Assembly: GCA_014323795.1 (NCBI GenBank)
Contig: JACONK010000015.1
Span: 1 to 40,653, forward strand
From: Paracoccaceae bacterium
Lineage (GTDB): Bacteria; Pseudomonadota; Alphaproteobacteria; Rhodobacterales; Rhodobacteraceae
Length of the DNA: 40,653 nt
Reading direction: 5' to 3'
Numbering within the stretch: position 1 is the first letter of the stretch; every line of letters starts with the position of its first letter. A program made the position numbers and the translations under genes. Below are positions 7,934-26,048 of the stretch, in pieces. Under the pieces are notes generated by a model. It searched no databases. It saw only the letters and a program-made list of their open reading frames with translations, and was not told the origin of the DNA.

Positions 7934-7934
7934 G

Positions 7935-8933: not shown

Positions 8934-8941
8934 CCTGCGCC

Positions 8942-10611: not shown

Positions 10612-11601
10612 TTACTTCAGGGCCGCGTCAGTGATGACATGGGTCCATGCCCCTTCCGGTGTTTTCGTGATGACCGGGTCAGAGCCACCGGCCAGCAATG
10701 ATGCCACTGTCCGCTTATAGTCTGCGGGGTCGAGGGCACCGTTTGAACCGGCGGTAAGCTTGGCGATCTCACCCATCATGCGGATCTGGTGGGCCTCTGT
10801 CTGGGCACCGGTTTCGTCATAGTTCAACACGATGCCAGCGGCGGCTACCGGGTTTTCCTCTGCCCACTTCCACCCTTTCATGGAAGCCCGCACAAAACGC
10901 ACCATCTTATCGGCAAATGCCGGGTCGGCCAGATTATCTTCCAGGGCATAAAGCCCGTCTTCCAGCGTCGCCACGCCCTGGTCTTCGTACCTGAAGGTCA
11001 CAAGGTCATCCGGCGTCAGGCCAGCATCGATCACCTGCCAATATTCATTGTAGGTCATTGTTGACACGCAAGCCGCCTGACCGTTCAGGAGCGGGTCCAC
11101 GTTGAAGCCCTGCTTGAGCACTTCAACACCGTCAGCCCCGCCTTCGGTCGGGATGCCCAATCGGCTCATCCAGCTGAGAAAGGGGAACTCGTTGCCGAAA
11201 AACCAGACGCCGAGCGTTTTACCCCTGAAATCCGCAGTGGTCGCCACACCGGAATCCTTGCGACAGGTCAGCATCATGCCCGAGGATTTGAACGGCTGCG
11301 CGATATTGACCATCGGCAATCCCTTTTCCCGGGCAGCGAGCGCGGCGGGCATCCATTCGACAGTCACATCCGCGCCACCACCAGCCAGCACTTGGGTCGG
11401 TGCGATATCCGGTCCACCGGGCATGATGGTGACGTTGAGGCCTTCTTCGCCGTAATAGCCGTTTTCCAATGCCACGTAGTAGCCCGCGAACTGGGCTTGC
11501 GTGACCCATTTCAGCTGCAGTGTGACGTCGTCAGTCGCAAATCCCACGGCCGGCAGCAGCGAAAAAGCCGTGGCGGTAATCGTTTTTTTCAAGGATTTCA
11601 T
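10612..11601 (-). CDS. ABC transporter substrate-binding protein, NMT1/THI5-like
   Basis: A 329-residue periplasmic binding protein. Residues 1-22 (MKSLKKTITATAFSLLPAVG...) are a typical signal peptide. The mature start LQLKWVTQAQFAGYYVALENGYY is characteristic of the NMT1/THI5 and ThiY-like family, whose members bind pyrimidines, hydantoins, riboflavin precursors and similar heterocycles. GGAGGG stands ahead of the ATG at 11601, which overlaps the TGA of the upstream permease by four bases (ATGA). It is the last gene of the operon. Next to dihydropyrimidinase the ligand is most likely a pyrimidine or cyclic ureide; a thiamine precursor is the main alternative. Confidence 0.87.
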   Translation of the reverse strand: MKSLKKTITATAFSLLPAVGFATDDVTLQLKWVTQAQFAGYYVALENGYYGEEGLNVTIMPGGPDIAPTQVLAGGGADVTVEWMPAALAAREKGLPMVNIAQPFKSSGMMLTCRKDSGVATTADFRGKTLGVWFFGNEFPFLSWMSRLGIPTEGGADGVEVLKQGFNVDPLLNGQAACVSTMTYNEYWQVIDAGLTPDDLVTFRYEDQGVATLEDGLYALEDNLADPAFADKMVRFVRASMKGWKWAEENPVAAAGIVLNYDETGAQTEAHQIRMMGEIAKLTAGSNGALDPADYKRTVASLLAGGSDPVITKTPEGAWTHVITDAALK

Positions 11602-12482
11602 GGTTCCCTCCCGTGTTGAATCAGGTATCTGCTTGCCCGGTCTCTTTGTGACGGATGCCAGAAGGTTATCCGCTTTTCTATCCAGGCCACAAGGCCATAG
11701 AATGCTGTGCCGACAAGGGCCGCCACCACAATCTCCGCCCAGACGAGGTCAATGGAAAGGCTCCCCACGCCGGTGGATATTCGAAAGCCCATCCCGCGGA
11801 TGGGGGAGCCAAAGTATTCGGCCACGATAGCACCGATCAGTGCGAGCGTGGCAGCAATTTTTAACCCATTAAAGATAAAGGGCATGGCCGCGGGCAGGCG
11901 CAATTTCAGCAGCGTCTGCAGGTAGCCCGCCGCATAGGTGCACAGGAGGGCGCGTTGCATGGCATCTGTTTCCCTCAAGCCCTGAACCGTGTTCACGAGT
12001 ATCGGAAAGAAAACCATCACCACGACGACTGCGGCCTTTGATTGCCAGTCGAAGCCAAACCAGTTTACCAGAATCGGTGCTATACCGACGATCGGCAGAG
12101 CAGCCACAAAATTGCCGATGGGCAAGAGACCACGGGTCAGAAAAACACTGCGATCAATGGCGATAGCTGTCAGGAAGGCCGCGCATGCACCGATCATGAA
12201 CCCCCGAAAGGCACCTTTCACCACCGTCTGCCGGAAATCCTGCCAAAGGATGTCTGCTGAGGAGATAAAAGTTGCGGCGACCATCGTCGGTGACGGAAGA
12301 ATAACCGGCGGCACATTAAAGGCACGCACAATGCCCTCCCACAGGGCAATCAGGCTCAGGCCAAAGATCACAGGCACCAGCACGGTAACGGCCCGCGTAT
12401 CAGACATACGGGAATTGGCAAGCCAGACGTTAATCGCCCAGGCAGCAGCCCAAAAAAGGATGGCACCAACCAGCCATATCAT
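11598..12482 (-). CDS. ABC transporter permease (BPD type), second subunit
   Basis: A 294-residue inner-membrane permease of the binding-protein-dependent type with about six hydrophobic segments. The cytoplasmic coupling (EAA-like) loop is visible as YAAGYLQTLLKLRLPAAMPF followed by a transmembrane stretch. Its ATG overlaps the stop of the other permease by four bases (12479-12482), and its own stop overlaps the binding-protein start. It pairs with 12479-13411 as a heterodimeric channel for the NMT1/THI5-like system. Confidence 0.87.
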   Translation of the reverse strand: MIWLVGAILFWAAAWAINVWLANSRMSDTRAVTVLVPVIFGLSLIALWEGIVRAFNVPPVILPSPTMVAATFISSADILWQDFRQTVVKGAFRGFMIGACAAFLTAIAIDRSVFLTRGLLPIGNFVAALPIVGIAPILVNWFGFDWQSKAAVVVVMVFFPILVNTVQGLRETDAMQRALLCTYAAGYLQTLLKLRLPAAMPFIFNGLKIAATLALIGAIVAEYFGSPIRGMGFRISTGVGSLSIDLVWAEIVVAALVGTAFYGLVAWIEKRITFWHPSQRDRASRYLIQHGREP

Positions 12483-13411
12483 ACCCGCATCCCCATATAT
12501 TTCAGCACCCCCCGCTGCGCCAGATCAAGTGCGGTCACCAGGACGCCAGCCAGGATCGCCGCAGAAAAAAGAGCGGACCAGATCGCCAGCGAATTACCGA
12601 ATTGGTCTCCGATCAGGATACGTGCACCCAGCCCGCTGATTGCACCCGTGGGCAATTCACCCACTATGGTACCAACCAGTGCCGCAGCGATGCCAACTTT
12701 CAACGCGGTGAAGAGGTAGGGCACCGATGCGGGAAGGCGCAGTTTGAGGAACGACTGTGCGCTGGTCGCGCTATAGGTACGCAGCAAGTTAAGCTGCGAC
12801 AGGCGCGGTGATCGCAGCCCTTTAACCATGCTCACCAGCACCGGAAAGAAGCACAGATAGGCCGAAATAATCGCTTTTGGCAAAGTGCGCCCTTCAATCC
12901 CAACCTGGTTCGATACAACGATAATCATCGGTGCGAGTGCCACAATAGGGATTGTCTGGGAAATGATCGCCCAGGGCATCAGGCTCATATCCGCCACCCG
13001 CGAATAGGTGATAGCAACCGCCCCGATGATGCCGACGGTGGTGCCCAAAAGAAAGCCCAGCAGCGTCGATTGCAGGGTGATCCAGCCGTGATAGATCAAT
13101 GATCTTTTTGACCACGCGCGCCCCTTCATGGCCATCTCGCCTGTCGTTTTCCAGAGTTCGCCACCCACCTGCACAGGTGTAGGCAGGCGCGGGCGTTTCA
13201 TGTCATAGACCGCCGCCACATGCCCGCGATTATCCAGTATCAGCGACCAGATGTGCACATCGCGGCGGGCCACTGATCCCTCCGGTATCACCGTGGCCCC
13301 TGCCCTCTCTGCCTGATCGAGTACGCCACGCAGGTTCATCGGTGCTACAGCGAGGTACCAGATGGCAACCAATATACCCAGAACCGTAAGTACGGGCAGC
13401 AGGCTACGCAT
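12479..13411 (-). CDS. ABC transporter permease, first subunit with periplasmic insert
   Basis: A 310-residue permease. The ATG at 13411 (MRSLLPVLTVLG) is chosen because GAGAGG precedes it by about 7 bases; a GTG at 13426 would add five residues but lies within that ribosome site. After the first membrane helix comes a polar segment of about 90 residues (roughly 25-110) before the other helices, longer than in the partner permease and probably periplasmic. The EAA-like loop reads YSATSAQSFLKLRLPASVPY. Same operon and substrate as the neighbouring subunits. Confidence 0.86.
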   Translation of the reverse strand: MRSLLPVLTVLGILVAIWYLAVAPMNLRGVLDQAERAGATVIPEGSVARRDVHIWSLILDNRGHVAAVYDMKRPRLPTPVQVGGELWKTTGEMAMKGRAWSKRSLIYHGWITLQSTLLGFLLGTTVGIIGAVAITYSRVADMSLMPWAIISQTIPIVALAPMIIVVSNQVGIEGRTLPKAIISAYLCFFPVLVSMVKGLRSPRLSQLNLLRTYSATSAQSFLKLRLPASVPYLFTALKVGIAAALVGTIVGELPTGAISGLGARILIGDQFGNSLAIWSALFSAAILAGVLVTALDLAQRGVLKYMGMRV

Positions 13412-13453
13412 TACATTGCCTCTCACAGACAGAGGATGTCCGGCTGTTTTTTC

Positions 13454-13780
13454 TCATTCGATCTCCGCAAGGTTTTCGCGCCGGCAGAACTGATACACCC
13501 CCGTATCAGCCACAAGGGTACGGTCCGTTTTGCATGATGCAAGGACCGTTTGCGCAGAAACGGGCGTCACGAAGGGATCATCGCCAGGCGTGATGCGGGC
13601 CCCTTGCCTGCATCCGTTCACGAAAACCTCCTGTTCCCGGAAGGCAGACCCAAGGTAATGGCGTTCCACGTCATCCGGCAGGCGGCCCTGCGGCACATGA
13701 TCGAACACGTCTGTCCATATGTTCAAGGTGGCCACGCGGGCCAGTGCGTTCGTGGGTTCTGCCGGGTGCAGATCAGTCAT
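13454..13780 (-). CDS. Hypothetical protein coupled to the ABC ATPase gene
   Basis: A 108-residue protein starting MTDLHPAEPTNALARVATLN. Its ATG overlaps the end of the ATPase gene by eight bases, and 42 bases separate its stop from the next permease gene, so it sits between two transporter genes in the same operon. That placement argues it is real. No signal peptide or membrane helix; three cysteines (in GCRQG, ASCKT and FCRRE) are spread through the C-terminal half. I do not recognise a family. It may be a small accessory or regulatory protein of the transporter or of the ureide pathway. Confidence 0.55.
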   Translation of the reverse strand: MTDLHPAEPTNALARVATLNIWTDVFDHVPQGRLPDDVERHYLGSAFREQEVFVNGCRQGARITPGDDPFVTPVSAQTVLASCKTDRTLVADTGVYQFCRRENLAEIE

Positions 13781-14546
13781 AGCTGTGGCCCGCCCGCAGC
13801 CCGTCCCGCACCCGGTGGGCGATGTTCAGAAACTCCGGCGTGTCGCGCAGTTCCAGCGGGCGTTCCTTCGGTAGCGGGTTTTTGATCACATCTATAATCC
13901 GCCCTGGCCGGGGTGACATAACGATGATCCTGGTCGACAGATAGACGGCCTCCGGGATGGAATGGGTGACGAAGCAGATCGTCTTCCCGGTCCTGGCCCA
14001 AAGCTGGAGGAGCTGCTCGTTCAAGTGATCCCGCACAATCTCATCAAGGGCACCAAAGGGCTCATCCATCAGCAGAATATCCGCATCAAACGCGAGTGCC
14101 CGGGCAATCGAGGCCCGCTGCTGCATGCCGCCGGACAGTTGCCAAGGGAATTTCTTTTCAAATCCTGAGAGTTCCACAAGTGCCAGAGTGCGTTTCACTC
14201 GCTCTACCTGATCGACCCTGGAATAGCCCATGATTTCAAGGGGAAGCCGGATGTTTGCCCCAATCGTTCGCCATGGGTAGAGCCCGGCAGCCTGAAATAC
14301 GTAGCCATAAGCCCGCGCCAGCCGCGCTTCTTCCGGCGAGGTGCCGTTCACGGTAACAGTTCCGCCCGTAGGCTGCTCCAGATCCGCTATCACGCGCAGG
14401 AATGTCGTTTTCCCACAGCCCGATGGACCAATGAAGGAAACGAAATCCCCCTTGGCCACGTTCAGGTTCACATCCTTAAGCGCATGGATAGGACCGTCGT
14501 TCGTCTGAAAAGTTAAATCAAGGTTTTGGGCAGAGATCACCGTCAT
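13773..14546 (-). CDS. ABC transporter ATP-binding protein
   Basis: A 257-residue ATPase of the nitrate/sulfonate/taurine type. Walker A GPSGCGKTT, Q-loop in YVFQAAGLYPW, signature LSGGMQQR, Walker B ILLMDEPFGALDE and the switch histidine in FVTHS are all intact. The ATG at 14546 follows GAAGGA by about 10 bases. It drives the NMT1/THI5-like importer whose other subunits follow in order. Confidence 0.92.
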   Translation of the reverse strand: MTVISAQNLDLTFQTNDGPIHALKDVNLNVAKGDFVSFIGPSGCGKTTFLRVIADLEQPTGGTVTVNGTSPEEARLARAYGYVFQAAGLYPWRTIGANIRLPLEIMGYSRVDQVERVKRTLALVELSGFEKKFPWQLSGGMQQRASIARALAFDADILLMDEPFGALDEIVRDHLNEQLLQLWARTGKTICFVTHSIPEAVYLSTRIIVMSPRPGRIIDVIKNPLPKERPLELRDTPEFLNIAHRVRDGLRAGHSYD

Positions 14547-14602
14547 GCGGCGGGTAGTCCTTCTTCAATGTGGCACCCGGTCTATGCCATGGTATCGCGC
14601 AA

Positions 14603-15037
14603 TTAGCTACACCGGAAAAACGGGATAACAAAGAAGAACGACCAGCGGAGCAACACCATCCAGGGCAGAAATCCGTAAGCCCGGGTAATACGGGCGACCG
14701 CGCTCTGACACATGAACATCCGGGAACCGTGCACCCCCTGCGTCAGCAGACCGACGGGGCATGTGTGGTCGCCCAATGTGGCGGAACCATGCATCGTTTG
14801 TCGGCGGGCTGTCACTATATCGGTGATTTCTTCGGTCAGTTTATCGCCATCCGAAGGCGAAACCTGCCGCAAGCGGGCGACCCCATCAAAAATACCGGAC
14901 CGGCTGATCACCTCCGCCACCGCTGGCAGATACCCTTCGTCTTTGAGCAAAAGACACAGATCAAGTGGCACGAAGATATCCAAAGCCTGTGCCGGCAGCG
15001 CATTGAATGACCGGGTGATCGTTGCATCGCGGGGTGC
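14603..15037 (-). pseudogene. Probable remnant of an SRPBCC (START-like) family gene
   Basis: The leftward frame is open from 15037 (just after an in-frame TAG) to 14603 with no ATG at its head; the first usable codons are rare starts with no ribosome site. The translation begins DATITRSFNALPAQALDIF and continues through PLDLCLLLKDEGYLPAV, SGIFDGVARLRQV and SPSDGDKLTEEIT. This order and spacing resemble SRPBCC polyketide-cyclase/START-like proteins (NAPAEAVFDIFVPIDL..., GYGPLPAV..., SDG...EE). After about residue 85 the match is lost, and the C-terminal AYGFLPWMVLLRWSFFFVIPF only loosely resembles the family end, suggesting frameshift and decay. It lies inside the ureide operon between dihydropyrimidinase and the transporter. 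The family call rests on my reading of motifs. Confidence 0.4.
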
Positions 15038-15047
15038 CTATCCGGGT

Positions 15048-16502
15048 TTACACGCCCGTCGCCGGAATACCGGTGCGTTCAACGGGACGGGGTGCTGTCA
15101 GGTTTTTCCATTGGCCCAGTGCCTTGTTGACCGTTGCGTTCGGCGGGCGTTTCACGAATCTGCCGTGGCCTTCCCGAGTACGGATTTCGCCGTCGTGCAC
15201 GGCAAGCTGGCCACGGGTCAGGGTGAACCGCGGCATCCCTTTCACGTGGTGACCCTCAAAGACGTTGTAATCAATGGCGGATTGCTGTCTGTCGGCTGTA
15301 ATTGTCTTCTCTTTCGCCGGATCCCAGACAACCAGATCCGCGTCCGCACCCACCAGTACCGCACCCTTTTTCGGGTAGCAGTTCAGAATCTTCGCTATAG
15401 TGGTGGACGTCATGGCGACGAACTCATTTGGTGTCAACCGCCCGGTCGCCACGCCGTGCGTCCAGAGCATCGGCATCCGATCCTCCAGCCCCCCGGTACC
15501 GTTCGGGATCTTTGAGAAATCGCCGATTCCATAGCGCTTTTGCTCCGTTGTGAAAGCGCAATGGTCAGTAGCGACAACCGACAATGAGCCGGACATCAGG
15601 CCCGCCCACAGGCTTTCCTGATGCTTCTTGTTGCGGAAAGGCGGCGACATCACGCGGCGTGCGGCGTGGTCCCAACTCTCATGGAAGTATTCGGATTCAT
15701 CGAGCGTCAGGTGCTGTATCAGCGGCTCCCCCCAAACCCGCTTGCCGTTCTGCCGTGCGCGCCGAATTGCTTCATGCGCTTCTTCGCAGGACACATGCAC
15801 AACGTAAAGCGGCACACCCGCCATATCAGCGATCATGATCGCACGGTTGGTCGCCTCACCCTCCACCTGAGCAGGCCGCGAATAGGCGTGACCTTCCGGG
15901 CCGTTGTTACCTTCGGCCAGCAGATTCGATGTCATCTCCGCCACCACATCGCCGTTTTCGGCGTGCACCAATGCCGTGGCCCCGAGTTGGGACAGGCGCT
16001 GGAAACTGGCGAAGAGCTCATCATCATTCACCATCAATGCGCCTTTGTATGCCAGGAAATGCTTGAAAGTATTGATCCCGCACCGTTTCACGACTGTTTC
16101 CATGTCGTTGAATACCTGCTCCCCCCACCAGGTCACGGCCATGTGGAACGAGTAGTCACAGTTTGCCCGCGTGGACTTGTTATCCCACCGCCTGATCGCA
16201 TCGAGCAGGCCCTCCCCCTGATTCGGCAGGCAGAAATCCACCACCATCGTGGTTCCGCCCGCGAGCCCGGCCCGCGTACCCGACTCGAAATCATCGGAGG
16301 AGTAAGTGCCCATAAACGGCATTTCCAGGTGCACATGCGGGTCAATTCCGCCCGGCATCACGTAACAGCCAGTTGCGTCAAGCTCCGTGCCACCCTTCAG
16401 ATTTGGCCCAATCCCGGTGATTATCCCGTTCTCTATCGCGATGTCACCCGAATAGGTGATGTCAGCCGTGACGATGGTTCCGTTTTTGATAACTGTGGTC
16501 AT
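15048..16502 (-). CDS. Dihydropyrimidinase / D-hydantoinase
   Basis: A 484-residue cyclic amidohydrolase that opens 5,6-dihydrouracil, dihydrothymine or hydantoins to N-carbamoyl amino acids. The binuclear metal site is complete: H56 and H58 in IDPHVHLE, the carboxylated lysine K153 in KHFLAYKGA, H180 in VHAENGD, H236 in VVHVSCEE and D313 in ATDHC. Length fits the family. The ATG at 16502 has AAGGA about 9 bases upstream and lies 11 bases past the stop of a small coupled gene. It acts in the cytoplasm, followed by the M20 hydrolase encoded upstream in the same operon. Dihydropyrimidinase is favoured over allantoinase by the YSSDDFESGT and SCEEAH segments. Confidence 0.92.
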   Translation of the reverse strand: MTTVIKNGTIVTADITYSGDIAIENGIITGIGPNLKGGTELDATGCYVMPGGIDPHVHLEMPFMGTYSSDDFESGTRAGLAGGTTMVVDFCLPNQGEGLLDAIRRWDNKSTRANCDYSFHMAVTWWGEQVFNDMETVVKRCGINTFKHFLAYKGALMVNDDELFASFQRLSQLGATALVHAENGDVVAEMTSNLLAEGNNGPEGHAYSRPAQVEGEATNRAIMIADMAGVPLYVVHVSCEEAHEAIRRARQNGKRVWGEPLIQHLTLDESEYFHESWDHAARRVMSPPFRNKKHQESLWAGLMSGSLSVVATDHCAFTTEQKRYGIGDFSKIPNGTGGLEDRMPMLWTHGVATGRLTPNEFVAMTSTTIAKILNCYPKKGAVLVGADADLVVWDPAKEKTITADRQQSAIDYNVFEGHHVKGMPRFTLTRGQLAVHDGEIRTREGHGRFVKRPPNATVNKALGQWKNLTAPRPVERTGIPATGV

Positions 16503-16513
16503 GGGAATGTTCC

Positions 16514-16816
16514 TTAGTCCGACTCGTCGACGTAATCCCTGACTTGACCCGGTTCATCCGCGTCAACATCGATCACCAAATCTGCCGGGATAATTGCATG
16601 CCCCGGATAAAGCCGAATTGCAGATCCCGGGTGACGCAGCAAAAATTCAGCCCTGTGCCGAATACACGAAAACGCGACTTCATCCTGAATCTTGTTTCGG
16701 GGAACCCCACTTTCGCGAAATCGCCATTCCGGAAAAACGCGATACTTTGGATCCGCGCCGTCTCTGTAACGGAACCGGATTGCTTCCCGGTCGGATTCTT
16801 TTTGGTAAATTTTCAT
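16514..16816 (-). CDS. Hypothetical 100-residue protein coupled to the ureide hydrolases
   Basis: The ATG at 16816 (MKIYQKESDREAIRFRYRDG) overlaps the TGA of the M20 hydrolase by four bases and has GGAG about 9 bases upstream. The product is 100 residues, charged and soluble, with no membrane helix. Its stop is 11 bases from the dihydropyrimidinase start, so it is locked between two catabolic enzymes. I do not recognise the family. A role as a small partner of either hydrolase is inference from position only. Confidence 0.6.
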   Translation of the reverse strand: MKIYQKESDREAIRFRYRDGADPKYRVFPEWRFRESGVPRNKIQDEVAFSCIRHRAEFLLRHPGSAIRLYPGHAIIPADLVIDVDADEPGQVRDYVDESD

Positions 16817-18060
16817 TCCACAATCTCCGCTGTCTCCAGCACCGCGTGCAGCAACACGTTGGTGCCCGCCTCGGCCCACTCCTTGCTGATCTCTTCCGCC
16901 TCGTTATGACTCAACCCGCCAACGCAGGGGCACATGATCATTGCTGTGGGTGCAACATCGTTTATCCAGCAGGCGTCGTGGCCCGCGCCACTCACGATAT
17001 CCATGTGGCTGTAGCCCATCTTTTCCGCCGCGTTGCGCACAGCGGCCACGCAGCCTTCATCAAAGGCAGGCGGGTCGAATTGGCCAACGATCCGGCACTC
17101 GAAACCGACCCGGATATCCTCGCACAGATTCGGGGCGCGTTCCATAAATTCATCAACCATGCCGCTGAGCCTATCCGGCAGGTGCGTACGCATATCGACG
17201 GTACAGACAACCTTGCCCGGGATGATGTTGCGGCTATTGGGATAGACGTCGATGTGGCCGATCGCCCCCACGGCGTTGGGCTGGTTTTTCATCGCGATCT
17301 CATGCGCCAGTTCGGTGATCAGTGCCAGCCCGCGCCCGGCATTTTTGCGCATATGCATGGGCGTGGAGCCGGTGTGGCTCTCTTTTCCGGTCAGGGTGCA
17401 TTCAATCCAGCGCAGGCCCTGCCCGTGAGTCACGACGCCGATATCCCTGCCCGCGGCTTCAAGAATCGGGCCCTGTTCAATGTGCAATTCAAACATTGCA
17501 TGCATCTGGCGGGTGCCGACCTCCTCTTCCCCTACCCAGCCGACGCGCTTGATCTCATCGCCGAAAGTCTTGCCATCCGCATCAACCCGGTCATAGGCCC
17601 AGTCCCGGGTATGCTTGCCCGCGAAGACGCCGGAGCCGAGCATAGGCGGGGCAAACCGCGTTCCTTCCTCGTTCGTCCAGTTGGTCAGCACAATCGGGTG
17701 CCTGGTTTTCACATTCAGGTCGTCGATCGTACGGACCACCTCAAGCCCGCCGAGCACACCCAATACCCCGTCGTATTTCCCGCCCGTGGGCTGGGTGTCG
17801 AGGTGGCTGCCCATGTAGACCGGCAGCACATCAGGGTCTGTTCCCGCCCGGGTCGCAAACATATTGCCCATGGTATCCACGCCCATGGTCATGCCTGCCT
17901 CTTCGCACCAGGTTCGGAACAGTGCACGGCCCCTGGCGTCTTCATCCGTCAGCGTCTGCCGGTTGTTACCGCCCGCCACACCGGGGCCGATCCTGGCCAT
18001 CTCCATCAGGCTGTCCCACAGCCGATCCGGATCAATGCGGAGGTTTTTTGCGCAATCCAT
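16813..18060 (-). CDS. M20-family N-carbamoyl amino acid hydrolase / beta-ureidopropionase
   Basis: A 415-residue zinc-dependent amidase of the M20 group containing N-carbamoyl-L-amino acid hydrolase, bacterial beta-ureidopropionase and allantoate amidohydrolase. Metal and catalytic residues are seen: H87 in GSHLDTQ, D98 in KYDGVLG, E131-E132 in TNEEGTRF, H193 in HIEQGP, and the C-terminal SGAGHDA. The ATG at 18060 (MDCAKNLRID) is preferred; a frame opening 17 codons earlier has no ribosome site. It would release CO2 and ammonia from the carbamoyl product of dihydropyrimidinase, giving beta-alanine or another amino acid. First gene of the ureide operon; its promoter region is shared with the divergent methyltransferase gene. 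Confidence 0.9.
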   Translation of the reverse strand: MDCAKNLRIDPDRLWDSLMEMARIGPGVAGGNNRQTLTDEDARGRALFRTWCEEAGMTMGVDTMGNMFATRAGTDPDVLPVYMGSHLDTQPTGGKYDGVLGVLGGLEVVRTIDDLNVKTRHPIVLTNWTNEEGTRFAPPMLGSGVFAGKHTRDWAYDRVDADGKTFGDEIKRVGWVGEEEVGTRQMHAMFELHIEQGPILEAAGRDIGVVTHGQGLRWIECTLTGKESHTGSTPMHMRKNAGRGLALITELAHEIAMKNQPNAVGAIGHIDVYPNSRNIIPGKVVCTVDMRTHLPDRLSGMVDEFMERAPNLCEDIRVGFECRIVGQFDPPAFDEGCVAAVRNAAEKMGYSHMDIVSGAGHDACWINDVAPTAMIMCPCVGGLSHNEAEEISKEWAEAGTNVLLHAVLETAEIVE

Positions 18061-18198
18061 AACATGTTCCCAAGATCTTCGCACCTTTCGAAAGGCTGCA
18101 AAATATTGCATGATCGGTCAAGGCTTTTTGCTGCAATTTCATGTTACTCCGTTCGGATTCGTGCATTACACACAGAGCATAATTGTGGATGAGCTTCG

Positions 18199-19161
18199 AT
18201 GAACAAGCAGAGTCAAATATCAAAAAATTCTTTTGCGGGAGCGACGCGTGAAAAGCTGCCCGGGGAACTTTTGAAGAAAACCGATACGGCAAACCGAAAG
18301 CGCGGCAAGGATAGCGTAGAGGCAAAGGACTTTCGCTTTTATTGCCAATCTTCCGAACAGATGTCGCAATGTGACGATGAATCAGTTGCGCTCACAGTCA
18401 CGTCCCCGCCCTATTGGAACGCCATAGATTACGATACCCATGCCAATCACGGCAGTGATGTCTGGCACAGGGAGCGGGAATATACGGCCTTCGGTGACAG
18501 TTTCGAAGACTACCTCGACAACATCGTGAAGGTTTTCACAGAGGTATTGCGGGCCACATCGCCCGGCGGTTTCTGCGCAATCGTTGTCGGGACGCTCCTG
18601 CACAAGGGCAGGCATTATCCTATACAGATGCTGATTACCGAACGCCTGTGCGGTATCGGATGGGAGTTTCATCAGGACATTATATGGAACAAGGTGACGG
18701 GCGGTGTGCGCCGCGCCGGGGTTTTTATTCAGAAACCCAGGGCCGGGTATTACTACCCGAACATCATGACCGAATACATCCTGATATTTCGCAAGCCCGG
18801 CACCCCGCGCCGGGGCGCGCAAAAGGCCATGGACATAGACGATCTTTTCACAAGAGACATTGCCAACAACGTCTGGCACATCGCCCCGGTTCCCCCCAAT
18901 TTCATCGACCATCCCTGCCCTTTTCCCGGGGAGCTGGCCCGCCGTCTGATCCTGCTTTATTCCGATGAGGGGGATGAAGTCCTGGACCCGTTTCTGGGAA
19001 GCGGGCAAACTGCCCTGGCCTCCGTCGGGCATGGGCGCCGGTGTGTTGGCTATGATATAGAGGCAAAGTATATCGCCCTTGCGCATTCCTACATGATGAT
19101 CCCGCCCCCTTCAAGAAAGTACAACCTGATTGCCCGTTTTGAAAAGATTGCGGGGACATGA
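18199..19161 (+). CDS. DNA methyltransferase, TSPPYW type (probable N4-cytosine)
   Basis: A 320-residue amino-methyltransferase. The catalytic motif TSPPYW (68-73) comes before the AdoMet-binding motif DPFLGSGQT (263-271), the order of the beta class. The S-P-P-Y-W form is commonest in N4-cytosine enzymes, though N6-adenine cannot be excluded. The first 45 residues are basic and not conserved. A CATAAT box at 18177-18182 is a plausible -10 about 17 bases before the ATG; the ribosome site is weak. No endonuclease gene lies beside it, so it is a solitary enzyme or has lost its partner. Target sequence unknown. Confidence 0.85.
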   Translation: MNKQSQISKNSFAGATREKLPGELLKKTDTANRKRGKDSVEAKDFRFYCQSSEQMSQCDDESVALTVTSPPYWNAIDYDTHANHGSDVWHREREYTAFGDSFEDYLDNIVKVFTEVLRATSPGGFCAIVVGTLLHKGRHYPIQMLITERLCGIGWEFHQDIIWNKVTGGVRRAGVFIQKPRAGYYYPNIMTEYILIFRKPGTPRRGAQKAMDIDDLFTRDIANNVWHIAPVPPNFIDHPCPFPGELARRLILLYSDEGDEVLDPFLGSGQTALASVGHGRRCVGYDIEAKYIALAHSYMMIPPPSRKYNLIARFEKIAGT

Positions 19162-19180
19162 CCACCGCCTTCTGATCAGG

Positions 19181-19315
19181 ATGAAAATTGCCCACAAACC
19201 TCCGACCGAGATGACCGGGTTCAGCCACAAGGCCAGCACGGCAGTTGCCCGTCAAATCCTGTTCGAGATGAGTGCCAGCGACCTGCTGAAAGCCTTCCCT
19301 TCCACCCCCGGGTAA
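19181..19315 (+). CDS. Possible short frame after methyltransferase
   Basis: A 44-codon frame beginning MKIAHKPPTEMTGFSHKAST just behind the methyltransferase stop, same strand. The ATG has GATCAGGATG upstream, a modest ribosome site. No family recognised. It may be a gene scrap or chance. Confidence 0.2.
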   Translation: MKIAHKPPTEMTGFSHKASTAVARQILFEMSASDLLKAFPSTPG

Positions 19316-19323
19316 CGAGACAG

Positions 19324-19500
19324 ATGACGGATACTTGCGACATCAATTTGTATAATACCTCTGAATACTTCCGGTCATCCACCCTTGAAACGAAAATGGC
19401 AACGGCCAAGGCATTCCTTCATGATCGGAATGAACCCGTTTCAATCATGCCCAGGATCGCTGGCGGTGACGTTGAAGGCTTTGCCAGGATAGGTCGGTAA
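19324..19500 (+). CDS. Possible 58-residue protein
   Basis: ATG at 19324 opens a 58-codon frame (MTDTCDINLYNTSEYFRSST...) ending in EGFARIGR and TAA, eight bases after the previous short frame. The ending loosely recalls antitoxins of the HigA-like addiction type just before their helix-turn-helix, but that domain is absent. Treat as a weak candidate or a remnant. Confidence 0.2.
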   Translation: MTDTCDINLYNTSEYFRSSTLETKMATAKAFLHDRNEPVSIMPRIAGGDVEGFARIGR

Positions 19501-19529
19501 ATACGCGAAGCCCGTATCCGGAGAATACC

Positions 19530-19568
19530 GCCGGAACGGCGGCAGGTATTTGTGTATGCCGTTCCGGC
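19530..19568. repeat. Perfect 11-base inverted repeat past the F420 operon
   Basis: GCCGGAACGGC (19530-19540) and GCCGTTCCGGC (19558-19568) are perfect reverse complements with a 17-base loop. It lies about 60 bases beyond the stop of the last F420 operon gene, where a transcription end is expected. There is no T run on either side, so it would be a factor-dependent terminator, a 3' stabiliser or a protein site. Confidence 0.5.
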
Positions 19569-19625
19569 CGGGACGCGGGCAGATTTTCCTGAAGATTTTC
19601 CCGGCGACCCTGAATTTCCGACCTC

Positions 19626-20627
19626 TCAACACATGGCCGGAATGACTGACCGCCCGTATTCGGCGATGATCTTTTCCTCATCCCCGTTATCAAGATAGAT
19701 GTTGAATTGGGTGATCCCGGCGACCTCAAGTTGCCTGAGTTTCGCGATGTGGTCGTCAGCTGTGCCGAGCACGGCGAAACTGTCGATGATCTCGTCGGTG
19801 ATGAAGTCGAGCCAAGGGTTATCCGACTGCCCATGCCTGGAATAGTCGTAACCTTTCCGATCCTTGATGTAGGCCGTAAGGGACGGCGGAATATCGTCCC
19901 GGTCTGTACCGTATTTTTCAACGATATCAGCCACATGATTCCCGACCATGGCCGGAAACCAGCGCGTGGCGTCGCGACAGGTCTGCATATCGCCGAAGAA
20001 CGCAGGTGCGGCGGACATGATCCGGTAGTTCGACATGTCGCGCCCGATCTTTTTACCCGCTTCCACAGCCTGATCGCCCAGCCATTTGCAGATGCCAGGC
20101 TCTGCAATTTGCAGGATCAGCCCATCGCCCATACGCCCGGCACTATCGAGTGCCTTCGGCCCATATGCGGCGACCCAGACCGGCAGTTCATAGCCCGTAG
20201 CCCAGGGAAACCGGATCGGGTTCGGCACGTCGCCATACTGGCGTTCCTCGCCGCGAACAAGACCTTTGACCACATCGATGAACTCATCCATTTTCCGGAG
20301 CAGTGCAGGCTTGCGACCCATCACCCGCACCGCACTGTCGCCGCGGCCCACGCCGATATCAAACCGCCCGCCCGACTGCAGGGCAAGCGACCCGAAAAGT
20401 GACGCGGCGGCGGACCATTCCCGTGTGTTCGGATTCGTCACGCAAGGCCCGAAACGCATCTTTTCGGTGTGTTCCATGCACATGGCCATGGCCGGGAAGC
20501 TCTCACGCCAGAGGATATGACTGTCATAGAACCAGCAGTAGGTGAAACCCGCCTCTTCAGCCTGCGCAACCAGCTTTCGGGCACGATCATGAGGCATAAC
20601 CCCTTTGAATGTAATACCAAATTCCAT
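19626..20627 (-). CDS. F420-dependent luciferase-like (LLM) oxidoreductase
   Basis: A 333-residue TIM-barrel flavin/deazaflavin enzyme related to methylenetetrahydromethanopterin reductase. Segments such as MEFGITFKGVMPHDRA, WFYDSHILWRE, RFGPCVTNPNTREW and GRFDIGVGRGDSAVRVMGRKP place it near the proteobacterial CPS_4043-like subfamily (TIGR03842 as I recall it). It should use F420H2 to reduce, or F420 to oxidise, an organic substrate. AAAGGA precedes the ATG at 20627, 12 bases after the npdG stop, so it is the last gene of the F420 operon and probably the main user of the cofactor here. The neighbouring dihydropyrimidinase operon suggests a pyrimidine or ureide substrate; that is inference. 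Confidence 0.85.
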   Translation of the reverse strand: MEFGITFKGVMPHDRARKLVAQAEEAGFTYCWFYDSHILWRESFPAMAMCMEHTEKMRFGPCVTNPNTREWSAAASLFGSLALQSGGRFDIGVGRGDSAVRVMGRKPALLRKMDEFIDVVKGLVRGEERQYGDVPNPIRFPWATGYELPVWVAAYGPKALDSAGRMGDGLILQIAEPGICKWLGDQAVEAGKKIGRDMSNYRIMSAAPAFFGDMQTCRDATRWFPAMVGNHVADIVEKYGTDRDDIPPSLTAYIKDRKGYDYSRHGQSDNPWLDFITDEIIDSFAVLGTADDHIAKLRQLEVAGITQFNIYLDNGDEEKIIAEYGRSVIPAMC

Positions 20628-20639
20628 ATCGCTTCCTTT

Positions 20640-21308
20640 CTAGGGATCGGGTGGCCATATGCGGATGCCGGCATGGCTGAACGGTACCTGCCTTGAGGTA
20701 TTAATGCGGATAAGGATGGGCGTGATCGCCTCGATACACCGGGCAGATTGCACGTCGCCGGCGTTGTAGGCGCGCACACCCAGTTTTTCCATAAGTTCCA
20801 TAACCTTCCTGCGCGGTGCCAGCCCGTTGCCGCAGACAAGCACGTCGCAGTTGATGGCCGCGTCAAGGTTGTTCAGCGTGTGGGCCGACACATTGTGCAA
20901 CGCGCCCATGACCGGGATATCGGGGCCGAGCATGGCCTGTGCGGCCTCGGTCGCTGACCCTTCGGGAGGCATATCGACTTTCTTCGGGTCACTGGCGGCA
21001 AGCGGCACAACGATGTCAATCAGGATCTTGCCCGAAAGCCCGTCTTTGATACCTTCAAGCGTTGAATTATGGCCGGACCATGGGACGGAGAGCAGCACCA
21101 TCTCTTCTGCCGCCGCGACCGCCGCATCATTGCGCATGCCAGTGACCGCGGCACTGCCCCGTGGCAGTTTCGCGGCCAGTTCCGCGGCGATGTCCGCAGC
21201 ACGCCCCGCATCGCGGGAGCCAAGCGCGACGGACACACCCGCACGGGCGAACCGCAGCGCGAGGCCCTGGCCCTGTGGACCCGTTCCGCCGATTATGGCG
21301 AGTGTCAT
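20640..21308 (-). CDS. npdG: F420:NADP oxidoreductase
   Basis: A 222-residue Rossmann protein. The start [23 protein letters not shown] and the following GSRDAGRA fit NADPH-dependent F420 reductase, which passes hydride between NADP(H) and F420. Later segments [27 protein letters not shown] and VLVCGN are also family-like. It would keep F420 reduced for the luciferase-like enzyme encoded next. The ATG at 21308 overlaps the cofE stop by four bases. Confidence 0.9.
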
Positions 21309-22075
21309 CGAAACACATCCTCCTTACTGGTGCGCAGGATGTCCTGCGCGGACGTCTTCTCTGCCGCCTGCCAGGTCAGCCCGCGTATCCGCACCAGCGG
21401 CATCTTCGCCGCCTTGGCGACCACGAGGCCGGATGCAGCGGCAATCTCATCACTCAGCGCAGGCTCAGTGACGGACAGTGTGCGGCCCCAGGCATCCATA
21501 TCGCCGACGTCCGATGTCCTGGCCGGTACCCGGTGGAGCCCGATAGCCACATTCACCTGCCCGCGCCTCCATGGTCGCCCGAAAGTGTCGGTGATCACCA
21601 CGCCGATTTCAACACCGAAGCGGCTTTCCAGAGCACAGCCAAGATGACGGGCACTCGCATCCGGATCATCGGGCAGGGTGATGACGGTATTGTCCCTTCC
21701 CGCATTCGATTCATCGACCGCCGCGTTAGCGGATATGTAACCGAGCCTGTGCTCGCAAATCAACGTCCCCTCGTTCTGGTCCGGCCGCTTGAAAGCCCGC
21801 AGGATACGGGCGGATTGGCTGAGAACCACCTCCACCTTGGCGGGTTTCCTGTTCAGTTCCCCCGCGATCCGTATCGAGTATTCCGACGGGGTCACGGTGG
21901 AGAGATCGATCACATTGCCTTCGGCTTTTGAAACCACTTTATGCGCCACGCAAATCACATCGCCATCTTGCAGCCCGCCCGCCGCCGCGAGCGCGTCGCC
22001 CAGCTGAGCGGCAAGGTCGTCGCCCGGGCGCACATCCGGGACGCCGGGGATGGCAAATATCTTCACCGTGCTCAT
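21305..22075 (-). CDS. cofE: Coenzyme F420-0:L-glutamate ligase
   Basis: A 256-residue ligase that adds gamma-linked glutamates to F420-0 using GTP. The family core [17 protein letters not shown] is clear, with ADLAGxxxG-like surroundings replaced by [19 protein letters not shown] and then [17 protein letters not shown]. It is a stand-alone CofE: the FMN reductase domain fused to it in mycobacterial FbiB is absent. The start overlaps the cofC stop by four bases and the stop overlaps npdG. Confidence 0.92.
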
Positions 22076-22698
22076 TCCACAGCTATCAGTGCCTGGATTT
22101 CCGGATCGATTTCAGAGGCTTCCTCCAGGCAGGCAGAGGTATCCACGTCAAGGCTGAAGCTCTCAAACGGCATCCAGACCGCATGCAGGCCGACCCGCGC
22201 CGCCGCATCCATATGCCGGTACGCTGACTGCGGGCCATAGCGAAAACGCACGGCACACGGCGGGGTCACGAGCAGCGCGTTGGTGCCGTAATCCGCCGCC
22301 GGGCAGACAGTAACGCTCACATGACTGGCGAGCAGCCGTTTCAGGTCTCCGGGTGCCGGCGACGCAAGGTCAGCCGGTAAAATACAAACCCTGCGATATC
22401 CTTTCGCCTGAGCGTACCGCGCCGCATGTTCCAGCGCAATGCACAGGTTTGAAATTACAGGTTCCACGATAACCCGTATACCATGTTTCAACGCAATAGC
22501 CGCAACGCCCGCACTTCCGGTGACCACAGCACTATCCACGCCTTCGAGCTGCCGTAATAACTCCAGCGTTTTGCAAAGCATCAGCCGGGCCAGCCGCGCC
22601 CGCTGGTCCGGGGTGAGCTGCCCCTGCAATCTTGTTTTAGACCGGGACATATCCTTCATCGGCACCACAATCAGGGTATCTGCGCACGGTACGGTCAC
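22072..22698 (-). CDS. cofC: Phospholactate (or analogue) guanylyltransferase
   Basis: A 208-residue nucleotidyltransferase that activates 2-phospho-L-lactate, phosphoenolpyruvate or 3-phosphoglycerate with GTP for F420 assembly. The N-terminal IVVPMKDMSRSKTRL is the CofC/FbiD hallmark, with CILPADLASPAPGDL and DYGTNALLVTPP later. The start is GTG, one base after the cofD stop. Which of the three acids it uses cannot be read off by eye. Confidence 0.9.
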   Translation of the reverse strand: MTVPCADTLIVVPMKDMSRSKTRLQGQLTPDQRARLARLMLCKTLELLRQLEGVDSAVVTGSAGVAAIALKHGIRVIVEPVISNLCIALEHAARYAQAKGYRRVCILPADLASPAPGDLKRLLASHVSVTVCPAADYGTNALLVTPPCAVRFRYGPQSAYRHMDAAARVGLHAVWMPFESFSLDVDTSACLEEASEIDPEIQALIAVE

Positions 22699-22699
22699 G

Positions 22700-23653
22700 C
22701 TATATCCCCCAAGAGGCTGGTGCAGAGCACTCGAGTACCTGCCGGGCCAGCCGCTTCTTGCCTTCGATGTCGGGCATCAGGATATCGGTGACCACTGGCC
22801 TAAGCCCGAGGTCAGCAATTCCGGCGGACAGCCAGGCGTCCGCCGTATCTATCAAAAAGGTCCGGGCGAGCCCGGCATAGTACTCTGCCACACCCAACGC
22901 GTCCGCCCGCAGACCAAGCCCGCGCATCATCGCATCCGCAGCACCTTTCATGACTTTGCCACCGATAATTGGCGAGATGGCTATGATCGGTGCGCTGACC
23001 TGCGACAAGGCATCCGTAATGCCCGGAATAGCGAGAATCGGTGAGATACTGGCAACCGGGTTCGACGGCGCAAACACAATCAAGTCCGCCTCTGCGATGG
23101 CAGTGAGTGCTTCCGGCGTAGGTTTGGCATTTTCGATACCTTCGTATAACACTTCCTCAACAGGTACAGAATGCTGATTTTCAACGAAATATCGCTGAAA
23201 CGAGAGCCAACCATCCGCTGTCTTCACCCGCGTTTGAACCGTATCGTCGGTCGGCAGCACCACCCGCACCGGGCAACCGAGCCGGTCTGCGATATCAAAG
23301 GTAATTTCCGTCGGCCGATCACCTTTGCGCAACCGCTCGGTCCGATAAATGTGCAGACCGAAATCCCGGTCCCCCAGGAACATCCACGTGGCCGCGCCAA
23401 GTTCCGCGAGTGTATTGATTGCCCGGCACCCCTCATCCGCCACACCCCATCCCTGATTTCGGTCAATCCGCCCCGAAAGCGTGTAAATCATCGTATCGAT
23501 GTCGGGCGACACCCACAGGCCGTGGAACTCATCATCATCAGCAATGTTACCGATTACCGTCAGTTCTACACTGTCAAGTGCGGCAAAGCCTTCGGCCATT
23601 CTGGAACCGCCGATGCCCCCCGCCAGAAGCGTGACCTTGCCCGGTTCGCTCAT
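22700..23653 (-). CDS. cofD: 2-phospho-L-lactate transferase (CofD/FbiA)
   Basis: A 317-residue enzyme that joins the guanylylated acid to Fo to give F420-0 or its dehydro form. Family motifs: VTLLAGGIGGSRMAEGF at the N-terminus, GNIADDDEFHGLWVSPDIDT, and APSNPVASI. The ATG at 23653 overlaps the cofH stop by four bases; an in-frame start 11 codons earlier would overlap cofH further and lacks support. Confidence 0.93.
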   Translation of the reverse strand: MSEPGKVTLLAGGIGGSRMAEGFAALDSVELTVIGNIADDDEFHGLWVSPDIDTMIYTLSGRIDRNQGWGVADEGCRAINTLAELGAATWMFLGDRDFGLHIYRTERLRKGDRPTEITFDIADRLGCPVRVVLPTDDTVQTRVKTADGWLSFQRYFVENQHSVPVEEVLYEGIENAKPTPEALTAIAEADLIVFAPSNPVASISPILAIPGITDALSQVSAPIIAISPIIGGKVMKGAADAMMRGLGLRADALGVAEYYAGLARTFLIDTADAWLSAGIADLGLRPVVTDILMPDIEGKKRLARQVLECSAPASWGI

Positions 23654-24912
23654 TCCGCCACCGGGAACATCTTCATGAAGTCGCACGGGTCGGCGTTTTG
23701 CCGCGCCACCAGCGGCGCGAACTCTTCGGGATCGTGATTTTCAAACACCTCTATAGTATCGTAGACCGTGTTGCGCCGCACTGGCACACGACCGGCGGAA
23801 CGAATGATGTCACAAAATTCCCTGGCTGTTATTTCCTGCCCGTGCCTGGATCCGGCAGCCCGCGAAATGCTTTCGTTCATCAGCGTACCACCCATGTCAT
23901 TCGCCCCGTGCGCCAGCATTTGCCGCGCCCGTTCGGCACCGAGCTTCGTCCAGCTTACCTGGATATTATCGATAAACCCGTTGAGCATGATGCGCGATAC
24001 CGCATGCATCAGATATACCTCATCTTCCGTCGGCCCCGGACGTACCTGACCAGGTGCCTGTGCATAAAGCGGGCTTTCGGTGTGCACGAAGCTGAGTGGC
24101 ACCAGTTCCGTAAACCCGCCGGTGTCGCGCTGTACATCACGCAGAAGGGCGATATGGGCGGCCCAATGCTCCGGCGCATCCACGTGGCCGTACATGATAG
24201 TCGCAGACGTGGGGAGGCCAACGTCGTGCGCGGTGCAGATAATCTCCACCCATTTCTCAGTGCTCAGTTTATTCTTCGTCAGCTTCTTGCGCACCTCGGT
24301 GTCGAGGATTTCCGCCGCCGTCCCGGGCATCGAACCAAGGCCGCAATCCCGCAAATCGGTCAGAAACTCGCGGTAGCCAAGCTTTGACTTTGCCGCGCCG
24401 TACCAGACCTCGAAGGGTGAAAATCCATGGACATGCATGTCCGGGAGCACCGCTTTGATGGCAAGCACGATATCGCGATAGTAGGTTCCCGGCAGATTCG
24501 GGTGCAGACCACCCTGGACGCACACCTCCGTCCCCCCACGGTCCCAGGCCACTTGCGCACGGGCGGCGATCTGGCCTGGGGAAAGCCATTCGGCACCTTC
24601 TTCTTCCGCCCGCTTGGCGAACCCGCAGAAACGGCAGCCCATGTAGCAGATGTTGGTGAAGTTGATGTTGCGGTTAACCACGAAGGTTACCCTGTCACCG
24701 TTGGTTTGCCGCCGCATCTCGTCCGCCGTGGCGAAGACCGCATCCTTGTCCGCACCAGTGGCTTTAAAAAGCGTGACGCCATCGGCCTCAGACGTTTCGT
24801 GCCCCAGAAGCGTCCGATTGAGGATACACCGGACCGGGCGGCTTGCGGCCTCCATCTTCGCTTGCAAATCTGCGGGATGGCGGCGGGCAAAATGCTCTGG
24901 CACGGCCCTCAT
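23650..24912 (-). CDS. cofH: Fo synthase subunit 2, radical SAM
   Basis: A 420-residue radical SAM enzyme that couples tyrosine to 5-amino-6-ribitylamino-uracil, the first half of Fo synthesis. The iron-sulfur cysteines form CX3CX2C at C89, C93 and C96 (CYMGCRFC). Other family segments are EVCVQGGLHPNLPGTYY, GYREFLTDLRDCGLGSMPGTAAEIL and GANDMGGTLMNE. The ATG at 24912 is chosen because it overlaps the cofG stop as ATGA; a start six codons earlier is possible. Confidence 0.93.
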   Translation of the reverse strand: MRAVPEHFARRHPADLQAKMEAASRPVRCILNRTLLGHETSEADGVTLFKATGADKDAVFATADEMRRQTNGDRVTFVVNRNINFTNICYMGCRFCGFAKRAEEEGAEWLSPGQIAARAQVAWDRGGTEVCVQGGLHPNLPGTYYRDIVLAIKAVLPDMHVHGFSPFEVWYGAAKSKLGYREFLTDLRDCGLGSMPGTAAEILDTEVRKKLTKNKLSTEKWVEIICTAHDVGLPTSATIMYGHVDAPEHWAAHIALLRDVQRDTGGFTELVPLSFVHTESPLYAQAPGQVRPGPTEDEVYLMHAVSRIMLNGFIDNIQVSWTKLGAERARQMLAHGANDMGGTLMNESISRAAGSRHGQEITAREFCDIIRSAGRVPVRRNTVYDTIEVFENHDPEEFAPLVARQNADPCDFMKMFPVAE

Positions 24913-26045
24913 CCTGCGGCCTCCAGGCATTGCCGGCGGGCGAGCCCGTCATCCCGCACCATAGCCGCGATACGATTAGCAGGCAGCGGATCAAGGTAGC
25001 CGGGCTGGTCAATAAACCGGGGGTAAACCGTCAAACGTTCCTGTAGATTGAACCCGGCTGTGGCGCAGTTTTTTGCCAGAACACGTACTTCCGGCCAGTC
25101 GTGCTGCGGATTAATGAAATCGATAGAGACCGGACTGATCCCGCCCCAATCGTTGATCCCCGCTTCCAGATAGGCGATGTGGCGTTTGTGCAAGTTGGGC
25201 GGTGCCTGAAGACTGATCTCCGGGGCCAGAATGATCCGTGCCGCAGCAATCGTGCGCAGCATGTCTTTGATATCCGGCTCCGCATGGCCAGCCATTGCGA
25301 TGCCGGGCTTGCGCCGGAAGTTCTGTATGATGACCTCTTGAATATGCCCGTGCCGCGCATGGGCGGCGTTGATCGCGTGTAGTGCCTCGATACGCTCTTC
25401 CCAGGTTTCGCCAATGCCGATCAGCAGGCCGGTCGTGAACGGCACCCGCCTTTGCCCTGTGCGCTCCAGTGTGCGCATGCGCTGCACTGGCACCTTGTCC
25501 GGGCAGGCGTAATGGGGCTGGCCCTTGCGGGTCAGGCGACGGCTGATCGTCTCCAGCATCATGCCCATGGAGGCGGAGACAGGCTTCAGCCGATCAATCT
25601 CATCTTCAGTGAGTGTCCCTGCATTCACATGCGGCAAGAGTGTGGTTTCCCGCAGCACAAGCGCGCACATGTCCGCCAGATAGTCTGTCATGCGTGCATA
25701 ACCGAAAGATGCGAGTCCCTTCCGCGCCGCACCATATCGTTCTTCGGGCTTTTCGCCGAGGCTGAAGAGCAGCTCCTTGCACCCCCGCACCTCCCCCCGC
25801 CGCGCCTGGGCCAGAACCTGCCCCGGGGTCAGGATTTGCGCCGCCGGGTCGTCGGGATGTTTAACGAAAGCGCAATACCCGCAGGTGTCGCGGCACATGT
25901 TGGTGAGCGGGACAAAAACCTTTCGCGAATAGGTGACGGTTCGCCCCCAGTGCGCATCCCGTACACCCCGTGCCCGGCGCAACAGCGTGGTGGTGGTCTG
26001 ATCTGCAAAGGTATCTGACACGGGCTCATGATCCGGCATGATCAT
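24909..26045 (-). CDS. cofG: Fo synthase subunit 1, radical SAM
   Basis: A 378-residue radical SAM enzyme that closes the deazaflavin ring to give Fo. The cysteines C51, C55 and C58 (CRDTCGYC) bind the 4Fe-4S cluster; preceding SRKVFVPLTNMC and later LQAPPNLHK and WGGISPVSIDFINP are typical of CofG. CofG and CofH are separate genes, as in archaea and unlike the fused FbiC of actinobacteria. GTG at 26048, ATG at 26045 and ATG at 26039 are all possible starts; the promoter lies so close that the message may be leaderless from 26048. First gene of the F420 operon. Confidence 0.93.
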   Translation of the reverse strand: MIMPDHEPVSDTFADQTTTTLLRRARGVRDAHWGRTVTYSRKVFVPLTNMCRDTCGYCAFVKHPDDPAAQILTPGQVLAQARRGEVRGCKELLFSLGEKPEERYGAARKGLASFGYARMTDYLADMCALVLRETTLLPHVNAGTLTEDEIDRLKPVSASMGMMLETISRRLTRKGQPHYACPDKVPVQRMRTLERTGQRRVPFTTGLLIGIGETWEERIEALHAINAAHARHGHIQEVIIQNFRRKPGIAMAGHAEPDIKDMLRTIAAARIILAPEISLQAPPNLHKRHIAYLEAGINDWGGISPVSIDFINPQHDWPEVRVLAKNCATAGFNLQERLTVYPRFIDQPGYLDPLPANRIAAMVRDDGLARRQCLEAAG

Positions 26046-26048
26046 CAC

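Follow-up and report, generated by a model that had tools for sequence, protein, structure and literature searches.

In the Paracoccaceae bacterium of assembly GCA_014323795.1, the contig JACONK010000015.1 (40,653 nucleotides; "the window" below means this whole stretch) carries genes for an importer, a dihydropyrimidinase (DHPase) and an M20 carbamoyl hydrolase, together with an operon for synthesis of the deazaflavin cofactor F420 that ends in a gene for a luciferase-like protein (LLM). This raises the question of which enzyme supplies the DHPase with its dihydropyrimidine. Uracil breakdown usually starts with the iron-sulfur enzyme PreT-PreA (PreTA), and the LLM fold has no iron-sulfur clusters. 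Our analysis indicates that the locus very probably encodes the reductive pyrimidine pathway with an exchanged first enzyme, in which the LLM would reduce uracil or thymine using F420H2 and so replace PreTA. The case for the exchange is built on gene content, on the failure to find PreA or RutA in the genome, on replacement of preTA at the same position, on a distribution that runs counter to that of PreA, and on the residues of RutR-like regulators and RutR-type boxes in relatives. From this genomic context we propose, with high confidence, a variant of reductive pyrimidine catabolism that is new here; no F420-dependent pyrimidine pathway is described in the titles and opening abstracts of the open-access literature searched.

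Gene content and predicted pathway

The F420 biosynthesis, npdG, LLM, DHPase and M20 genes were assigned by profile searches against curated cut-offs. The features are as follows.

24909..26048, minus strand: cofG, FO synthase subunit, first gene of the F420-LLM operon (TIGR03550, 444.5 bits, cut-off 213)
23650..24930, minus strand: cofH, FO synthase subunit (TIGR03551, 491.3 bits, cut-off 374)
22700..23686, minus strand: cofD, 2-phospho-L-lactate transferase (TIGR01819, 278.3 bits, cut-off 257)
22072..22698, minus strand: cofC, guanylyltransferase (TIGR03552, 135.3 bits, cut-off 105)
21305..22075, minus strand: cofE, F420-0 gamma-glutamyl ligase (TIGR01916, 233.4 bits, cut-off 181)
20640..21308, minus strand: npdG, NADPH:F420 reductase, the presumed source of F420H2 (TIGR01915, 190.9 bits, cut-off 150)
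19626..20627, minus strand: LLM, proposed F420H2-dependent uracil/thymine reductase (TIGR03842, 492.5 bits, cut-off 295.45)
18199..19161, plus strand: N6/N4 DNA methyltransferase gene (PF01555)
16813..18111, minus strand: M20 carbamoyl hydrolase, proposed beta-ureidopropionase (TIGR01879, a broad subfamily model, 367.4 bits, cut-off 204)
15048..16502, minus strand: DHPase (TIGR02033, 582.6 bits, cut-off 393)
13773..14546, minus strand: importer ATPase (PF00005), conserved beside preTA in relatives
12479..13426, minus strand: importer permease 2 (PF00528)
11598..12482, minus strand: importer permease 1 (PF00528)
10612..11601, minus strand: NMT1-type substrate-binding protein (SBP), proposed pyrimidine binding protein (PF09084)

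An earlier note, made from the sequence of this DNA alone, had described the importer, the DHPase, the M20 hydrolase and the F420 operon with its terminal LLM, and all of these were confirmed at the positions listed, on the minus strand. The F420 operon has the order cofG-cofH-cofD-cofC-cofE-npdG-LLM. It is separated from the pyrimidine operon by the DNA methyltransferase gene, which lies on the opposite strand between the LLM and M20 genes. This gene had no counterpart in the other loci compared, and it stands where three LLM loci of relatives (L004-L006) and the preTA loci carry a rutR-like gene.

In the proposed pathway, the ATP-binding cassette importer would take up uracil or thymine, and NpdG, judged by its family, would supply F420, the product of the neighbouring cof genes, with hydride taken from NADPH. 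With F420H2, the TIGR03842-type LLM would then reduce uracil or thymine at the C5=C6 bond, C6 presumably receiving the hydride and C5 a proton. From their family assignments, the DHPase would next open the dihydropyrimidine ring, and the M20 protein, a putative N-carbamoyl-beta-alanine hydrolase, would release beta-alanine or beta-aminoisobutyrate. The LLM and its cofactor operon would thus stand in for PreT-PreA.

PreTA and the F420-LLM operon as partners of one hydrolase-importer operon

The genome from which the window derives is 98% complete and was searched for DHO_dh, PreA (NF006183) and RutA (TIGR03612). No PreA scored above cut-off (best partial match 40.3 bits versus 335; preT was not searched for separately), the sole DHO_dh match was a PyrD-like open reading frame (ORF), and RutA gave no match at E 0.001. 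The earlier note had found no preTA dihydropyrimidine dehydrogenase in the window; for PreA, the lack of a match over cut-off extends to the whole genome. PreA was above cut-off in 178 of 196 sampled genomes of the order, with a match at E <= 1e-60 in 187 of the 196, and all five same-genus relatives in this sample have PreA and none of the five has the LLM. The LLM is rare: with the genome of the window included each time, it scored above cut-off in 5 of 289 genomes sampled from the class, in 2 of 196 from the order and in 3 of 397 from the phylum.

The same hydrolase-importer operon was found with both first enzymes. Four of the five same-genus relatives (L139-L142) have the order preT-preA-rutR-M20-DHPase-ATPase-permease-permease-SBP, and the SBP of the window is 75-80% identical to the SBP of these operons. 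In the fifth (L143), the neighbours on one side of preA are not visible because the contig ends 1.4 kb beyond it. Another 20 preA loci were compared, 18 of them drawn from the order sample and 2 from LLM genomes; M20 and DHPase genes adjoin preA in 16 of these. In L004, L005 and L006, cofGHDCE-npdG-LLM is found where preT-preA would be, and one RutR homologue (in L004, two) separates the F420-LLM operon from the hydrolase-importer operon. Trees were then built for DHPase (54 rows, two long rows being left out) and M20 (56 rows), each row labelled as "beside LLM" or "beside PreTA". At least 6 label changes are needed on the DHPase tree and at least 7 on the M20 tree, and the supported branches alone force 5 and 4, respectively; the DHPase of the window belongs to a supported set of ten rows, six of which are of the PreTA type. 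That the same DHPase and M20 lineages have partnered both PreTA and the LLM argues that both first enzymes yield the same product.

Locus counts were made for the best 80 of 401 stretches from a scan for LLM relatives (72-89% identical); DHPase was counted at >=58% identity, and loci with at least 9 kb on both sides (43 of the 80) are referred to as full-flank loci. DHPase is present in 38 of the 80 loci and in 29 of the 43 full-flank loci, an M20 gene in 33 and cof genes in 68 of the 80; PreA is present in none of the 80. In 23 of the 80 loci the M20 gene comes after the LLM in the same orientation, and in six of them the gap is 76-134 bases. Neither DHPase nor M20 was seen in 42 loci, 14 of them full-flank, and 39 of these 42 genomes have a DHPase elsewhere. 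In 19 LLM loci without adjacent DHPase or M20 genes, only LLM and F420 genes recurred in more than 4 loci among the 22 largest clusters of neighbours.

Individual loci show the association in several settings. In P. denitrificans DSM 413 (L076), the neighbours of the F420-LLM operon are genes for DHPase, M20, a symporter of the NCS1 type and a RutR homologue, and PreA was not found in the genome. On a Leisingera plasmid, genes for an NCS1 symporter, hydA, M20, an omega-aminotransferase and both transhydrogenase subunits are divergent from the F420-LLM operon, and the LLM gene is followed by that of a RutR homologue. Two genomes of the phylum outside the class also have F420-LLM operons: one has RutR, M20 and NCS1 homologues nearby, and the other has RutR and aminotransferase homologues nearby, its homologues of M20, NCS1 and DHPase being on the adjacent stretch. 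On one Streptomyces plasmid, which is the whole basis for that genus, a DHPase gene directly precedes the gene of a TIGR03842 protein scoring 590 bits; a nitrilase-family ORF (below model cut-off) and an aminotransferase-like ORF lie upstream.

To allow for the uneven completeness and the various orders of the 80 LLM genomes, the comparison was repeated on a matched set, the family of Pseudovibrio exalbescens (85 genomes, completeness of at least 90% requested). Fourteen of the 15 genomes with the LLM lack PreA and one has it; among the 70 without the LLM, 66 have PreA and 4 lack it. This anti-correlation has a Fisher p of 1.1e-11 across the 85 genomes, kinship not being corrected for. By locus names, at least 8 of the 15 LLM genomes are Pseudovibrio and 3 are Roseibium.

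RutR-type regulators and boxes

When 83 LLM loci were searched by tblastn with the RutR protein of E. coli as query, 27 homologues were detected in 25 loci. All 27, and also 27 homologues from PreTA loci, keep the residues W77, Y97, W167, Q171 and Q179, which are described as the uracil contacts of RutR (PMC10891134). Two of the homologues were scored and fell below both RutR equivalog cut-offs (198 versus 368 and 175 versus 230 for one; 230 versus 368 and 200 versus 230 for the other), so that they are RutR-like by residues and not proven RutR.

RutR-type boxes are present upstream of cofG in 10, 15 and 27 of 51 LLM loci at no more than 1, 2 and 3 mismatches, respectively. Scrambled palindromes (n = 300) reached maxima of 0, 2 and 10 loci at these thresholds, with means of 0, 0.03 and 0.35, and no box was found at the control sites, 64 cofE starts and 33 DHPase starts. 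For comparison, the E. coli rutA-rutR spacer matches the RutR consensus with 3 mismatches, and at PreTA loci boxes were found at 7, 19 and 19 of 21 M20 starts and at 0, 2 and 21 of 26 preT starts (the same three thresholds). Ten of the 15 loci with a box at no more than 2 mismatches show no DHPase or M20 on the fetched stretch (L003, L019, L024, L025, L027, L031, L036, L040, L074 and L075); the regulatory link therefore extends to loci in which the hydrolase genes are not in view. These results predict that the F420 operon of the relatives is controlled by a uracil-sensing RutR homologue, in which case F420 would be made for the pyrimidine pathway.

A different F420 operon, which in L028 includes one long CofGH-like ORF, runs divergently from the LLM in the four loci L028, L038, L047 and L073, three of which are from Roseibium; all four have a RutR-type box 114-124 bases upstream of the LLM, with 2-3 mismatches. 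For the window as a whole the box scan was weak, giving 4 matches at no more than 3 mismatches versus 1.57 expected, and 6 of 100 shuffles gave as many. The best match (13711-13726, 3 mismatches) lies in the 346-base gap (13427-13772) that separates the gene of the importer ATPase from that of permease 2.

The first option of the earlier note, the predicted reduction of a pyrimidine ring by the LLM, gains support over action on another ureide from the hydrolase-importer operon shared with preTA operons and from the RutR contacts and boxes of the relatives. The check it had suggested, conservation of the neighbourhood together with absence of preTA, likewise came out favourably in the locus counts, the positional replacement and the anti-correlation with PreA. 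Beyond the window, we consider it likely that many alphaproteobacteria make F420 mainly for pyrimidine catabolism, that the cofactor operon is a RutR-controlled, replaceable first step which displaced PreTA several times, and that the TIGR03842 proteins, found also in Streptomyces, add another type to the enzymes that form dihydropyrimidines. If so, F420 would have a defined and inducible job in these bacteria, and its level is predicted to rise during growth on uracil. The TIGR03842 family would gain a reaction, and a central nitrogen-salvage pathway would have an entry enzyme that repeatedly replaced PreTA. As the earlier note remarked, pyrimidine breakdown would be an unusual use of a deazaflavin.

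The LLM enzyme, known systems and other readings

TIGR03842 is a hypothetical equivalog in NCBIfam. The AlphaFold model of the LLM has a mean predicted local distance difference test score (pLDDT) of 84.8. By both sequence and fold its closest solved proteins are F420-dependent methylenetetrahydromethanopterin reductases (Mer), the top seven having 25-27% identity and template modelling scores of 0.81-0.84 (query length); fold matches also include an F420-dependent alcohol dehydrogenase and glucose-6-phosphate dehydrogenases. The LLM resembles Mer in its predicted fold and in the proposed use of F420H2 as hydride donor, but it has no methanopterin context. Assignment as Mer itself was rejected: TIGR03555 gave 112.9 bits versus a cut-off of 348.7, and Glu6 of Mer, which is mutated in 8qq8 and which we take to be catalytic, is not kept. 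The LLM of the window has Thr at this position, and 90 sequences have 51 Cys, 36 Thr, 2 Ala and 1 Val. Among the residues invariant in 92 aligned LLMs, including the Streptomyces protein, are His53, Tyr155, Asn230 and His231, which are candidates for binding or proton donation.

Compared with the PreT-PreA operon, the DHPase, the M20 hydrolase, the importer, the RutR homologue of relatives and the predicted reaction are the same; what differs is a single F420-LLM with a full cofactor operon as first enzyme, PreA not being found in this genome. A published precedent comes from antibiotic biosynthesis. SSGG-03002, a putative F420/FMN (flavin mononucleotide) oxidoreductase, is reported to be genetically required for C5-C6 reduction of the uracil moiety in mureidomycin (PMC10714638). 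SSGG-03002 and NpsU, of the mureidomycin and napsamycin clusters, are likened here to the LLM by their description only, as putative F420 enzymes for reduction of a uracil moiety at C5-C6, and differ from it in serving biosynthesis (PMC10714638).

Several observations weigh against reduction of uracil or thymine by the LLM. We know of no activity for any TIGR03842 protein. The letters of the RutR consensus used for the boxes were not found in print, and the box counts are not independent, the loci being related. Of the 34 M20 starts in LLM loci only 3 have a box, and none was found upstream of seven LLM starts without adjacent cof genes. In the window itself no RutR homologue was detected by tblastn at 1e-10, nor in 18001-19700 even at E 10 (the rest of the genome was not searched), and no clear box precedes cofG (best score 5.7 versus a training minimum of 11.0). 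No DHPase or M20 lies within about 10 kb of the LLM in 14 of the 43 full-flank loci. PreA is present in 9 of the 80 LLM genomes (2 of 50 and 7 of 30), in which the LLM may therefore differ in substrate or conditions. Finally, SSGG-03002 is reported to have given no product in vitro (PMC10714638).

Seven of these nine genomes with both PreA and the LLM were included in a DHPase search, and six of the seven have two DHPases, as would fit two complete pathways, but 7 of the 35 other genomes searched also have two.

These nine genomes would also suit a reading in which the substrate of the LLM is another cyclic compound (hydantoin-like, purine-derived or a methylated pyrimidine) feeding the same hydrolases, and so would the breadth of the DHPase and M20 families and the NCS1 protein of Leisingera, which also matches allantoin permease models, below their cut-offs. 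A further parallel is the uric-acid cluster of Chloroflexota, for which a putative F420-LLM is proposed to stand in for another kind of reductase of reductive purine breakdown (PMC12507026); that enzyme differs from the LLM of the window in ring and pathway, and its function is putative as well (PMC12507026). We regard such a different substrate as improbable: the uracil contacts are retained in all 27 regulators, the boxes are of the RutR type, and the same DHPase and M20 lineages were repeatedly swapped between PreTA and LLM partners.

It is also quite improbable that the LLM acts later in the pathway, for example on malonate semialdehyde or methylmalonate semialdehyde, while another reductase or an external dihydropyrimidine feeds the DHPase. 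Some F420-dependent LLM enzymes, present among the fold matches, do act on alcohols or sugars; against this, the genome has no PreA or RutA match to provide the first step, and the F420-LLM operon takes the place of preTA and anti-correlates with PreA itself.

An FMN-dependent oxygenase that opens the ring in the fashion of RutA would be consistent with the fold superfamily that RutA and the LLM have in common. The Rut pathway (RutA-RutG) shares with the proposed pathway an LLM-fold first enzyme and, as predicted for relatives, control by RutR; RutA differs as the oxygenase of another route and has no match in this genome. This reading is very improbable, the LLM gene being in an operon with F420 biosynthesis genes and npdG, its nearest solved relatives being the F420-dependent Mer proteins, and a DHPase being superfluous after oxygenolytic ring opening. 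A RutA-like oxygenase was rejected, the RutA model being without a match in the genome and BLASTP of the LLM against E. coli RutA giving no match at E 10.

Chance proximity of two unrelated operons, to which the divergent methyltransferase gene and the 14 full-flank loci without the association might point, is hardly credible and was rejected on the neighbourhood counts (DHPase in 29 of the 43 full-flank loci, short LLM-M20 gaps in six) and on recurrence of the association in Streptomyces and outside the class.

With reduction of uracil or thymine by the LLM as the preferred reading, some minor observations can be added. Both NAD(P) transhydrogenase subunits of the Leisingera plasmid are encoded between the pyrimidine genes and the F420 operon (L116:6254-9271), and 5 of the 80 LLM loci contain close homologues of PntA/PntB; such genes would be fitting for a demand for NADPH in F420 reduction. 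In two genomes of another alphaproteobacterial family (L148-L151), TIGR03842-type proteins are 50-56% identical to the LLM of the window, and their genes occur as neighbouring pairs at two places of one genome. Most are near cof or npdG, and no DHPase was seen on the short stretches examined. A contig labelled Nocardioides marinus (L077) carries an F420-LLM cluster of alphaproteobacterial type, and its label looks wrong. Beyond the importer genes of the window, at 7758-10183 on the plus strand, lie an LDH2-type dehydrogenase-like ORF and an ORF resembling amino acid oxidases dependent on flavin adenine dinucleotide, both labelled by eye.

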